From an uncultured SAR116 cluster alpha proteobacterium (GTDB lineage Bacteria > Pseudomonadota > Alphaproteobacteria > Puniceispirillales > Puniceispirillaceae), in assembly GCA_902573725.1 (NCBI GenBank), contig CACGLE010000009.1, positions 1-46,798 on the forward strand: a stretch of 46,798 nt of DNA. The letters are read 5' to 3'. Shown here piece after piece: positions 16,203 through 38,323 of this stretch; position 1 is the stretch's first letter; every line of letters starts with the position of its first letter. The notes beneath the pieces were generated by a model. It was given only the letters and a program-made list of their open reading frames with translations. It made no database searches and was not told the origin of the DNA. The position numbers and the translations under genes are program-made.

Positions 16203-16673
16203 TTAGTGACTATTATGATAGGGATGATTTTTTAGAATCATTTCGGCGCGATAGAGTTGTTCTGCAAGCATAGCCCGAAATAATAAGTGTGGCCAGGTGG
16301 CGCTACCAAACCTAATACAACAATGCGCTGAGCTAATAAGTTTTTCAGAATGTCCATTCGCACCTCCTACAGCAAAATAACAAGCGGGTATAGCTTTGTT
16401 ACGCCATGTTTTAATAATTTCTGCTAATTGTTCGGAGCTGGTGTCAATACCAGATTTGTCCATAACGATAAGGCGATAACCCTTAACTGCCTGTAGGGAA
16501 AGAAATTTAATTACTTTTTCACCTTCCTTTGAGTTCCCTCCAGAGTTTGATGAGCGTGAACCCTCAAGCTCAACAATAGTTCCAGAAAAAGGTAATCTAT
16601 TGAAATAAGTTTGTGTTAATTCGTAAGAAGGGTGATTTTTTTGCTTTCCGAAAGCAATTATATGTAAACGCAT
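16203..16673 (-). CDS. rlmH: 23S rRNA (pseudouridine1915-N3)-methyltransferase
   Basis: SPOUT-family methyltransferase of 156 aa that methylates pseudouridine 1915 in helix 69 of 23S rRNA. The N-terminal MRLHIIAFGK, the central FAVGGANGHS (SAM-binding knot region) and the C-terminal LLFRAMLAEQLYRAEMILKNHPYH are diagnostic. The family's usual GG.xG and AEQLYRA..I....YH patterns are intact. It lies just downstream of rsfS; both act on the 50S subunit. Confidence 0.96.
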   Translation of the reverse strand: MRLHIIAFGKQKNHPSYELTQTYFNRLPFSGTIVELEGSRSSNSGGNSKEGEKVIKFLSLQAVKGYRLIVMDKSGIDTSSEQLAEIIKTWRNKAIPACYFAVGGANGHSEKLISSAHCCIRFGSATWPHLLFRAMLAEQLYRAEMILKNHPYHNSH

Positions 16674-16723: not shown

Positions 16724-17101
16724 TTAATCTACCGATACTTGAATGCTCTCGTCATTCGCGGAAGCTAACCACATTCTCTCGAGACCGTAAAATTCCCTAA
16801 CCTCAGGCTTGAATAAATGAACAATAACATCGCACGCGTCTAATAAAACCCAATCTGCTTGTTTAACACCTTCTCGACCAAGAATAGTGACACCAGCTTT
16901 TTTTAATTTTACTTCAAGGTTCTGTGCCATCGAAAGTACTTTTCTTGAAGAAGTACCAGATGCTATAACAATATAATCAGCGATAGAAGAAGTATTTCCA
17001 AGAGGAATAGATAAAATATCCTCACCCTTCTCATCATCTAACGCTTGTAAAACAAGCGTATTTAGCTCTTCAGGTGAAAGATGTTCTTTTTTTCTGAAAA
17101 T
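16724..17101 (-). CDS. rsfS: Ribosomal silencing factor RsfS, apparently starting at ATT
   Basis: RsfS binds L14 and blocks 30S-50S joining. The full product is 125 aa (LSPEELNTLVLQALDDEKGEDI, ADYIVIASGTSSRKV, ADWVLLDACDVIVHLF, REFYGLERMW). The only ATG in this frame (16930) would start at residue 58 and delete the first half of the domain. Upstream, homology runs to an in-frame TAG at 17105-17107. No ATG, GTG, TTG or CTG exists between them. An ATT at 17099-17101 lies exactly 7 bases after AAGGAG, so I call it the initiator, as in infC. The alternative is an indel in the A7 run just inside the gene, which would join an ATG in another frame. Confidence 0.88.
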   Translation of the reverse strand: MFRKKEHLSPEELNTLVLQALDDEKGEDILSIPLGNTSSIADYIVIASGTSSRKVLSMAQNLEVKLKKAGVTILGREGVKQADWVLLDACDVIVHLFKPEVREFYGLERMWLASANDESIQVSVD

Positions 17102-17108
17102 TTTCTAT

Positions 17109-17114
17109 CTCCTT
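17109..17114 (-). promoter_or_regulatory. Shine-Dalgarno that fixes the rsfS ATT start
   Basis: On the minus strand AAGGAG occupies 17109-17114, followed by a 7-base spacer and then ATT at 17099-17101. It is one of the strongest ribosome-binding sites in the window. It cannot serve the ATG at 16930, about 180 bases downstream. Confidence 0.75.
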
Positions 17115-17180
17115 TTTAAACTTTACATACGACATATAGCGTTTTTTCACTTTTTCTACAACAGAGATGAAAGTAAGTTA

Positions 17181-17819
17181 TTAATTAGGCATATTTTTCC
17201 TAATTTTTGTTGCTGAAATTGTATTTCGAGTTGCAAAAGAAAAAGCCCATTTGCGTTTGCGACCAGTTCCTAAACGACTCGGCGGACACCTACTACCAAG
17301 GATTGAAACACTTTTGCTGGAAAGTGCCTTAAAGGTAAAATTAGGTCTGTTCATTACAAATATGTCCACGAGTTTTGCAATTCGATGTGCGTCCTTCCAT
17401 TGAAAAAACTGTATTAGATTATCCGCACCCATTATCCAGATGAATGAAGTAACCGGAAATTGCAGACGTAATCGAGATAAGGTAATAATTGTTGACGCTC
17501 TTTTGTGAGGGAAGCAATTTGCAATTTGAAGCTGATGTTCATAATCAAGTACCTTAAGCCAAGGCACATTATTAGCAACCATTATTGCGCTTAATAGTCT
17601 GTGTTCAAACGGCATCATGTTAATATCGGACTTCAAAGGATTTTTTGGACTAACTAGCCACCATACTTCACTTAATTTGGCTTGTTTTTTTGCAACTTCT
17701 GCGATTTCTTTATGTGCCTGATGAGCTGGATTAAATGACCCCCCCATTAATCCGATACGTTGTTTTCTTAAATGATGAGAAAGGCGTGTTATAAAAACAT
17801 TTTTACTTTCGCGTTTCAC
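17181..17819 (-). CDS. nadD: Nicotinate-nucleotide adenylyltransferase
   Basis: NaMN adenylyltransferase of NAD biosynthesis, 212 aa. The nucleotidyltransferase motif GGSFNPAHQAH lies near residues 26-36. The C-terminal ISATKIR corresponds to the ISxTxIR motif. Usual members have GGSFNPPHxGH, so the second Pro and the Gly are substituted here (A and A), but the catalytic histidines are present. The start is a GTG at 17819, inside the last codons of proA (17-base overlap), preceded by AGGGGG. The neighbours proA and rsfS fit the usual proBA-nadD-rsfS-rlmH order. Confidence 0.93.
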   Translation of the reverse strand: MKRESKNVFITRLSHHLRKQRIGLMGGSFNPAHQAHKEIAEVAKKQAKLSEVWWLVSPKNPLKSDINMMPFEHRLLSAIMVANNVPWLKVLDYEHQLQIANCFPHKRASTIITLSRLRLQFPVTSFIWIMGADNLIQFFQWKDAHRIAKLVDIFVMNRPNFTFKALSSKSVSILGSRCPPSRLGTGRKRKWAFSFATRNTISATKIRKNMPN

Positions 17820-22444: not shown

Positions 22445-23470
22445 TTATTTTGTTAATAATGAAATAGCGGCTTTTCTTCCTGAAATCCACGCTGATTCAA
22501 TGCGTGGTCCAGAAAGCCAGTCACCTGCTAGAGCAATGGAATGTTGCATATCAGTGCGCATATGTGAGTCATCGGCAATTTTGGATACCCTCGCAAAACG
22601 CCATTTATGGCCTTCTAAGTAAGAAATTTGTTCTGGTAGCGCAGATATATTGAGTTTGTTATCCTCACTAATTATTGATTTCCATTCCCCCCATAATTCA
22701 TGAGACAGGTGATTTAGATTCCTTTCAATATTTTTTAAGGAAAACTTGGGACTCGCATGAATGATTATAGAGAAATAAGACGTGTTATTCTTTCCTCCAT
22801 GTGACCATTTTCCAATGGACCAGCTTATGTTTCTTTTTTCCAGTAATATAGGTTCAAATATTGACCGTTTCTTATTCAAAATTAACGCAGAATCGTATGA
22901 TAATTGAATACCCGCTAAAATTGCAATACAAGGCTGATATTCAGCGTTCAAGCTCGTTTGTCTTAGCTCTGTTAGGAATTCTGGAAGTATTGCATGTGTT
23001 TGGGGTGCGGGCATTGTCAGAATAACATTATTTGCATAAATAGGCTTTGAGTTTTCAATTGATATACACCAACCTCTAGTACCTTTTTCCACTTCCTTTT
23101 TAATTTTTGTTACAAGTGCATTTTGAACAATATTAAAAGGGCTTATTAATGTTGAAATAAATGACTTAAATACAGGATTTCCAACGTATACTGGGCCTTT
23201 TTGGGGATGATCAAAAATAGCTATTTCTTTATTTTTAGCACCTTTTTGAACTAATTCATTAAATTCACTATCTTTTGTTGTGAAAAATTGAGCACCATGA
23301 TCAAACGAAAATAAACGGTGGTTTCTTGTAGATAATCTACCGCCAGGATTATTACCCTTATCAATTATGAGCACATCTCTTTTATTTTTGGTAAGAGTGT
23401 TTGCAGCGGATAATCCAGCCACTCCAGAACCAATAATGACAAATTCATATGATTGTTTTAATGTGTTAAT
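22445..23470 (-). CDS. Renalase-like FAD-dependent oxidoreductase, apparently starting at ATT
   Basis: NAD(P)/FAD-dependent amine-oxidase-fold protein resembling the bacterial renalase-like family. Features are the FAD motif VIIGSGVAGLSAAN at the N-terminus, GGRLSTRN, FDHGAQFFTTKD, and a C-terminal FAD contact LAGDWLSGPRIESAWISG. The substrate is unknown. A GTG at 23422 would begin inside the dinucleotide-binding loop (the V of GSGVAG) and is implausible. Upstream, the frame is open only to a TAG at 23483-23485 and holds no ATG, GTG or TTG. An ATT at 23468-23470 lies exactly 7 bases after GGAG (23478-23481) and would give 341 aa starting M-N-T-L-K-Q-S. It is divergent from the HAD gene. Confidence 0.82.
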   Translation of the reverse strand: MNTLKQSYEFVIIGSGVAGLSAANTLTKNKRDVLIIDKGNNPGGRLSTRNHRLFSFDHGAQFFTTKDSEFNELVQKGAKNKEIAIFDHPQKGPVYVGNPVFKSFISTLISPFNIVQNALVTKIKKEVEKGTRGWCISIENSKPIYANNVILTMPAPQTHAILPEFLTELRQTSLNAEYQPCIAILAGIQLSYDSALILNKKRSIFEPILLEKRNISWSIGKWSHGGKNNTSYFSIIIHASPKFSLKNIERNLNHLSHELWGEWKSIISEDNKLNISALPEQISYLEGHKWRFARVSKIADDSHMRTDMQHSIALAGDWLSGPRIESAWISGRKAAISLLTK

Positions 23471-23576
23471 TTGAATTCTCCGCTACTGAGGTTTATCACT
23501 TAAGGAAATTCAATCTAAAATTGTTCAACAATGGGAATCACAAGATGTCAATTTTTTCAGAAAAACGTGTATAAAT

Positions 23577-37915: not shown

Positions 37916-38185
37916 CAATTCAAATAATAAATTTCGGGCAAACTGAATAGCAAGCAGCAAAATCACGGGGCTTATATCCAGTCCCCCAAAATTTGGAACA
38001 ACAGAACGTATCCAATCTAGCAGAGGATCATGTAATCTTGATAGCCCAGTATATAAGGAGCGCACAATTGGTTGCCATGGATTAATTATATTGAAGGCTA
38101 CCAGCCAGCTTAACACAACATATACAATAAGTGTGAAGCAGTATAAATCTACAATGCTATTAATTAAATTAAGAATTGAATTCAT
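37907..38185 (-). CDS. YggT family membrane protein
   Basis: A 92-aa protein with two YggT-type hydrophobic segments (about residues 15-38 and 72-90) joined by the conserved NPWQPIVRSLYTGLSRLHDPLLDWIRSVVP-type loop. YggT proteins are linked to osmotic tolerance and, in plastids, to thylakoid organisation (CCB3/YlmG), but the biochemical role is unclear. It lies 97 bases upstream of folD. The 150-base gap before it carries a pair of AATCA-W-TGATT sites. Confidence 0.9.
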   Translation of the reverse strand: MNSILNLINSIVDLYCFTLIVYVVLSWLVAFNIINPWQPIVRSLYTGLSRLHDPLLDWIRSVVPNFGGLDISPVILLLAIQFARNLLFELLL

Positions 38186-38262
38186 AAGGCTCTATAATTC
38201 TTTCACGATGTTGTGTTTACAGGTATTATTGAAAATATGTTTTGTAAGATACTGTCATATGC

Positions 38263-38323
38263 AATCATTGATTAATGACTGAGAAGATATGGGAATTAAA
38301 ATGAATCATGTCAATCAATGATT
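38263..38323. repeat. Inverted pair of AATCA-W-TGATT palindromes
   Basis: AATCATTGATT (38263-38273) and AATCAATGATT (38313-38323) are exact reverse complements separated by 39 bases. Each is itself a near-perfect palindrome (AATCA, one A/T, TGATT). They fall 78-138 bases before the yggT ATG and also downstream of acs. No T tract follows, so a terminator is unlikely; paired operator sites are more plausible. A third copy precedes acs. The gap of 150 bases holds no recognisable gene. Confidence 0.45.

Follow-up and report, generated by a model that had tools for sequence, protein, structure and literature searches.

A predicted AUU start behind a strong Shine-Dalgarno sequence in rsfS of SAR116 bacteria, resembling that of infC

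The gene for the ribosomal silencing factor, rsfS, of a SAR116 alphaproteobacterium appears, with near certainty on the sequence evidence, to be translated from an AUU codon. Comparison among relatives supports the position of this start, the conservation of AUU, AUC or AUA (together AUH) at that position in the family and the pairing of the codon with a strong Shine-Dalgarno sequence (SD). We consider it highly probable that rsfS is truly AUU-started and that initiation factor IF3 destabilises its initiation complex and holds its output low, in the manner of infC. Repression of rsfS by IF3 in the cell is likely, in keeping with what has been published about this factor (PMC5472188).

The window (the whole stretch of DNA analysed, 46,798 nucleotides) carries rsfS on its minus strand in the gene order nadD, rsfS, rlmH (Table 1). 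The product belongs to the RsfS/YbeB/Iojap family, scoring 110.1 bits against TIGR00090 (cut-off 56.9) and 106.1 bits against PF02410 (cut-off 21.6); it is 98% identical to RsfS of SAR116 genomes, the closest named relatives, and is the single RsfS match in a genome that is incomplete (1.45 Mb in 75 contigs, 64% complete). A preliminary description of this DNA had claimed that RsfS homology extends 57 codons upstream of the first ATG, that an in-frame TAG caps the region, that no ATG, GTG, TTG or CTG lies between, and that an ATT stands exactly seven bases after AAGGAG, and each of these observations was borne out. The stop-to-stop frame spans 16724-17104 (126 aa), and the TAG that closes it lies within the seven-nucleotide spacer, ATAGAAA (17108-17102), between the SD and the ATT; the codons TTC AGA AAA AAA GAA CAT follow. 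None of the four codons named occurs in the 57-codon stretch that begins at the ATT and leads to the ATG at 16930-16928, so that no AUG, GUG or UUG precedes the conserved core. The TIGR00090 match covers residues 15-111 of RsfS, and a start at 16930 would therefore cost about 44% of the domain. Of 48 open reading frames in the window that reach at least 90 aa and largely do not overlap, the first canonical start lies more than 30 codons in for just rsfS and one frame without a Pfam match. The latter, a 111-aa open frame on the plus strand (37947-38282) that reaches its first canonical start at codon 48, is probably spurious.

Table 1. Features of the rsfS locus and of a second AUH-started gene in the window
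Feature	Position	Strand	Basis or remark
rlmH, downstream neighbour of rsfS and internal control, ATG start	16203-16673	-	PF02590
rsfS (ribosomal silencing factor), coding sequence from the ATT, 125 aa	16724-17101	-	TIGR00090, PF02410
First in-frame canonical codon (ATG) of rsfS, within the RsfS domain	16928-16930	-	
A7 run questioned in the preliminary description, not a frameshift error	17087-17093	-	relatives L003, L004, L008
Predicted ATT start codon of rsfS	17099-17101	-	blind SD test and genus alignment
In-frame TAG inside the SD-ATT spacer, closing the rsfS frame upstream	17105-17107	-	sequence
SD AAGGAG, 7 nt upstream of the rsfS ATT	17109-17114	-	sequence
Possible -10 element of an rsfS promoter, GCTATATG	17133-17140	-	conserved in genus; tentative
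nadD, upstream neighbour of rsfS	17181-17819	-	TIGR00482, 114 bits, cut-off 112.45
FAD-dependent oxidoreductase, GGAG + 7 nt + ATT	22445-23482	-	first canonical codon inside Rossmann motif

Between nadD and rsfS, the sequence AAAAAA(C/A)GCTATAT (about 17133-17147, minus strand) is kept in all ten genus genomes (L001-L010) and is tentatively put forward as a possible rsfS promoter; a scan upstream of rsfS for the sigma-70 consensus gave no match. Predicted mRNA folding at the rsfS start was no better than that of shuffled sequences (z -0.01).

Starts in relatives were assigned in two ways. The blind SD test picks the in-frame codon behind the best SD match and ignores codon identity, and the seven-codon contest lets only seven start-like codons compete for a strong SD. 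In the 38 genomes of the family set, which holds every family member with an RsfS match, the blind test returned AUH for rsfS without exception (33 ATT, 3 ATC, 2 ATA) and never a canonical codon. Composition alone predicts 3.9 picks of AUH plus CUG, and when one in-frame codon per genome was drawn at random over 2000 rounds AUH reached at most 10 of 38, indicating that the AUH codon is not there by chance. A near-cognate codon behind a well-spaced SD is found family-wide (38/38), with an SD score that is strong in every genome (median 7.85, minimum 7.0). Half of the genomes (19/38) have no canonical start before the RsfS core, a state found for rlmH in 1/38, and in the other 19 some canonical codon occurs upstream in rsfS, never behind the best SD. 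Ser, Thr and Ala are common directly after initiator Met, and one of these is residue 2 of the RsfS predicted from AUH in 29/38 genomes (76%; background 18%).

Which of ATT, ATG or GTG close relatives carry had been left by the preliminary description to an alignment; the codon is ATT, invariant together with the preceding AGGAGAT in all 10 genus genomes, whereas the codons that follow this block and a large part of the leader preceding it vary. The blind test gave a similar result for the named SAR116 loci L031-L066, which overlap the family set and were kept out of the 38: AUH in 34 of 36, with one ACC and one locus without a scored SD. In the sister families f2 and f3 taken together, the blind test selected AUH in 13/14 loci (ACT in the remaining one) and the contest in 14/14, with SD scores of 8.1-10. 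An AUH start of rsfS has been kept across the family, and a start of the IF3-discriminated kind, as described below, probably across much of the class.

Relatives likewise rule out an assembly error, a frameshift and an internal ATG start as accounts of rsfS. The preliminary description had asked whether a length error in the A7 run might hide an ATG in another frame. L002 has the same A7 run as the window, L003 and L004 have a longer run with the frame kept, and L008 has no A-run (AGA AAC CAA GGT), yet all four keep both the ATT and the frame, so that neither an A6 or A8 error nor slippage explains the frame. A wrong run length concealing the ATG that does lie upstream out of frame (ATG TCG TAT GTA AAG) is accordingly hardly credible, given that other assemblies keep frame and ATT and that the upstream ATG is confined to the window and the three genomes nearest to it. 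Slippage on an A7 run can in principle occur, and the other-frame ATG is present upstream in these four closest genomes, yet a programmed frameshift or RNA polymerase slippage joining that frame to rsfS is extremely improbable because the SD and the ATT are conserved genus-wide and the run and upstream ATG are not. Translation from the first canonical codon, the ATG at 16930, with everything upstream untranslated, can be dismissed as well, since the upstream part is RsfS domain sequence (within residues 15-111) kept in family relatives and the SD sits at the ATT instead.

The neighbouring genes and infC served for comparison. In rlmH, ATG occupies profile position 1 in 37/38 family loci (the remaining match is partial) and the conserved first residue in 30/30 loci from other families of the order, with a median SD score of 0. 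Strong-SD codons in the family showed no excess of AUH/CUG for either neighbour (rlmH, 2 seen and 3.5 expected; nadD, 1 seen and 1.8 expected). Outside the family nadD did show an excess (7 vs 2.4 expected in the rest of the order, 10 vs 4.7 in the rest of the class), which warns against over-reading individual SD calls. Many starts of rlmH and nadD are preceded by little SD, which makes these genes poor positive controls for the blind test; the conserved first residue of rlmH and the infC gene, known for its non-AUG start, were therefore taken as controls. The blind test gave ATA for infC in 30/30 loci of the order (L315-L344, the best 30 of 38 matching relatives); in the wider class (28 of 113 matching genomes) AUH was obtained in 21/28 by the blind test and in 27/28 by the contest. 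The resemblance to infC suggested in the preliminary description is good as regards the starts themselves, infC having AUA in 30/30 loci of the order and rsfS having AUH with a strong SD in 38/38 of the family, with the codons differing (ATA for infC, mostly ATT for rsfS). In the IF3 encoded by the window's genome, the positions equivalent to E. coli 75 and 99 are occupied by Tyr and Arg, residues that matter for fidelity.

An IF3-discriminated rsfS start is not found in every family of the order. The exception is the sister family f4 (16 genomes; L142-L156 and L121), in which rsfS has ATG, and the best SD score for a canonical codon is 0 in 13/16 and 5.7-6.7 in three. Across the order, then, AUU is paired with a strong SD, whereas AUG mostly has a weak one, and both combinations would fit an RsfS output that is held down. 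The state of f4 implies that IF3 sensitivity can be lost and is dispensable there, and starts of this type are missed by methods that require a strong SD. In three f4 loci (L335, L339, L342) infC has ATA with a strong SD.

Across Alphaproteobacteria, 114 further loci were sampled (the best 30 of 180 matching genomes, 80 further down by E-value and 4 others); nine rows, mostly second members of a family, were passed over, about 70 matching genomes were not included, and well-scoring RsfS is favoured in the sample. Of these loci, 101 were scored by the blind test, the other 13 having a weak SD; AUH/CUG was selected 36 times against an expectation of 6.7, a canonical codon 8 times against 4.2 and some other codon 57 times. 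The contest called 71 starts, with 16 loci ambiguous and 27 without a strong SD. Called starts comprised 23 ATA, 17 CTG, 11 ATT, 9 ATC and 11 canonical codons, such that AUA, AUU, AUC or CUG accounted for 60/71, and canonical codons for 11 where composition predicts 27; uncalled loci may well have canonical starts, and canonical starts with a weak SD, as in f4, are under-counted because the contest needs a strong SD. The position of the predicted start also recurs, in that 27 of 43 AUH calls in the class lie 14-16 codons before the conserved core and the family start lies at 14-15. CTG was selected in 10/97 scored loci by the blind test (background, 2.2% of codons) and in 17 by the contest, where 12.9 were expected. 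Seven named Bartonella loci (L070, L077, L079, L082-L085) carry AAAGGA (AAAGGG in L082) followed 7 nt later by CTG, which makes CTG a likely rsfS start in Bartonella and a less sure one elsewhere. Sampling beyond the class covered 42 of 99 matching genomes (22 by score and 20 for family spread); the blind test found no AUH or CUG start among the 32 of these 42 loci that were scored, and the contest called 16 starts (8 ATG, 5 TTG, 2 GTG and 1 ATT).

In a tree of RsfS and RlmH from 160 alphaproteobacterial loci, 108 of them with a called start, the identity of the start codon changed at least 28 times, with at least 20 changes among the four non-canonical codons (97 non-canonical rows) and 6 steps between non-canonical and canonical codons (just 11 canonical rows; shuffled labels gave a mean of 10.7 and a lowest value of 8). 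These counts are rough because the alignment is short and 60/156 inner branches are poorly supported. The first count left out 31/160 loci without a clear start and used labels set by hand for f1 and f4; a recount without hand labels (108 rows) again gave 28 and 6 changes.

The window also holds a second gene with an apparent AUH start, encoding an FAD-dependent oxidoreductase with no known tie to initiation. Nine genus loci (L373-L381; 9 of 10 genomes with a match) have ATA in seven cases, ATT in one (that of the window) and ATC in one; an ATG stands two codons downstream in two of the ATA loci, and two loci show a weaker SD. Other SAR116 genera with a readable start (L383, L384, L385, L392) have an ATG upstream of the Rossmann motif. 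The AUH start of this gene indicates that rsfS is not unique and need not be special to initiation control, and non-canonical starts may be commoner in the genus than thought.

IF3 acts against subunit association. It destabilises 30S complexes and in this way represses starts that are not AUG, GUG or UUG (PMC5472188), and the combination of a strong SD with an IF3-rejected codon (AUU, AUC, AUA or CUG) gives rsfS the design of infC. In the mechanism we propose, the strong and well-spaced SD of rsfS would recruit the 30S subunit, and AUU would leave the resulting complex open to destabilisation by IF3, so that output would be low and dependent on free IF3, as for infC. Selection would keep the codon such that RsfS is scarce while IF3 is plentiful, and gating by IF3 would allow RsfS to rise once IF3 runs short. 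RsfS has been reported in other species to block subunit joining through L14 of the 50S subunit (PMC3400551), and the preliminary description had imagined a feedback through an IF3-sensitive start of rsfS. This idea is weakened by the ATG with weak or no SD in rsfS of f4, by the UUG start of E. coli rsfS, which is not discriminated by IF3, and by the AUH start of the unrelated oxidoreductase. In a broader and more doubtful form, the two anti-association factors of many Alphaproteobacteria, IF3 for the 30S subunit and RsfS for the 50S, might be tied by one sensor, both mRNAs having IF3-rejected starts. In that case both factors would increase together whenever free IF3 dropped relative to 30S subunits, and RsfS would take over as IF3 became short; the exchange among AUA, AUU, AUC and CUG, with few canonical steps in the called starts, would then reflect this selection.

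A weak codon might instead set a low, fixed level of RsfS in the nadD-rsfS-rlmH cluster, IF3 sensitivity being a side effect without regulatory use. We regard this as a serious contender, if somewhat short of an even chance. The features that weaken the feedback idea fit a fixed level: the ATG with weak or no SD in f4 may yield a similarly low output, E. coli manages with UUG and the oxidoreductase has its own AUH start. In S. aureus, moreover, three AUU or AUA starts were about 10% as productive as AUG when the medium was poor (PMC13009471). A weak SD would be a simpler means to a fixed level, yet the SD is strong in 38/38 family genomes, and the changes on the tree that stay among IF3-discriminated codons (at least 20) also speak against it.

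IF3-gated initiation of rsfS, the reading we prefer, would represent an infC-like start maintained in a different gene, and one that is apparently unreported. Among the open-access full-text matches listed, no AUH or CUG start of rsfS was found, and only the UUG start of E. coli rsfS, also seen in our sequence comparison, is described (PMC10917681). Published work indicates that very few genes with IF3-rejected starts have been characterised (PMC5472188) and that, among 61,358 ancestral AUG starts in 36 groups of close genomes, two changed to CUG and one to AUU (PMC5622118). If the reading is true, rsfS would join infC as a second gene in which such a start is retained throughout a family and probably much of a class, with a product that blocks subunit joining, and the physiological use of IF3 discrimination would become directly testable. 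Gene callers limited to ATG, GTG and TTG would be expected to place the start of RsfS, and of some other proteins here, wrongly or too far downstream.

Several known systems share parts of this arrangement. Binns and Masters reportedly described in 2002 an AUU start for E. coli pcnB, which resembles rsfS in an AUU start that limits expression and differs in having an unrelated function. E. coli rsfS is the same gene and likewise has a minor start codon, but UUG falls outside the IF3-discriminated class (PMC5472188). The GTC start of Streptomyces sigR is repressed by IF3, as was demonstrated with IF3 dosage and fidelity mutants (PMC5472188); like rsfS, sigR is a gene other than infC with a non-canonical start, whereas codon, gene and phylum differ, and its repression by IF3 rests on experiment where that of rsfS is proposed. 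S. aureus cvfC1 (AUU) and ccpN (AUA) share with rsfS a conserved non-canonical start and an extended SD, in other genes and a Gram-positive host (PMC13009471). The closest parallel is infC itself, which starts at AUU in E. coli, at AUC in Streptomyces (PMC5472188) and at AUA in S. aureus (PMC13009471). Both infC and rsfS have an IF3-discriminated start, which in S. aureus and SAR116 follows a strong SD, and a product that opposes subunit association; in the same genome, however, infC has AUA and rsfS AUU, and infC regulates itself directly, whereas IF3 would act on rsfS in trans.
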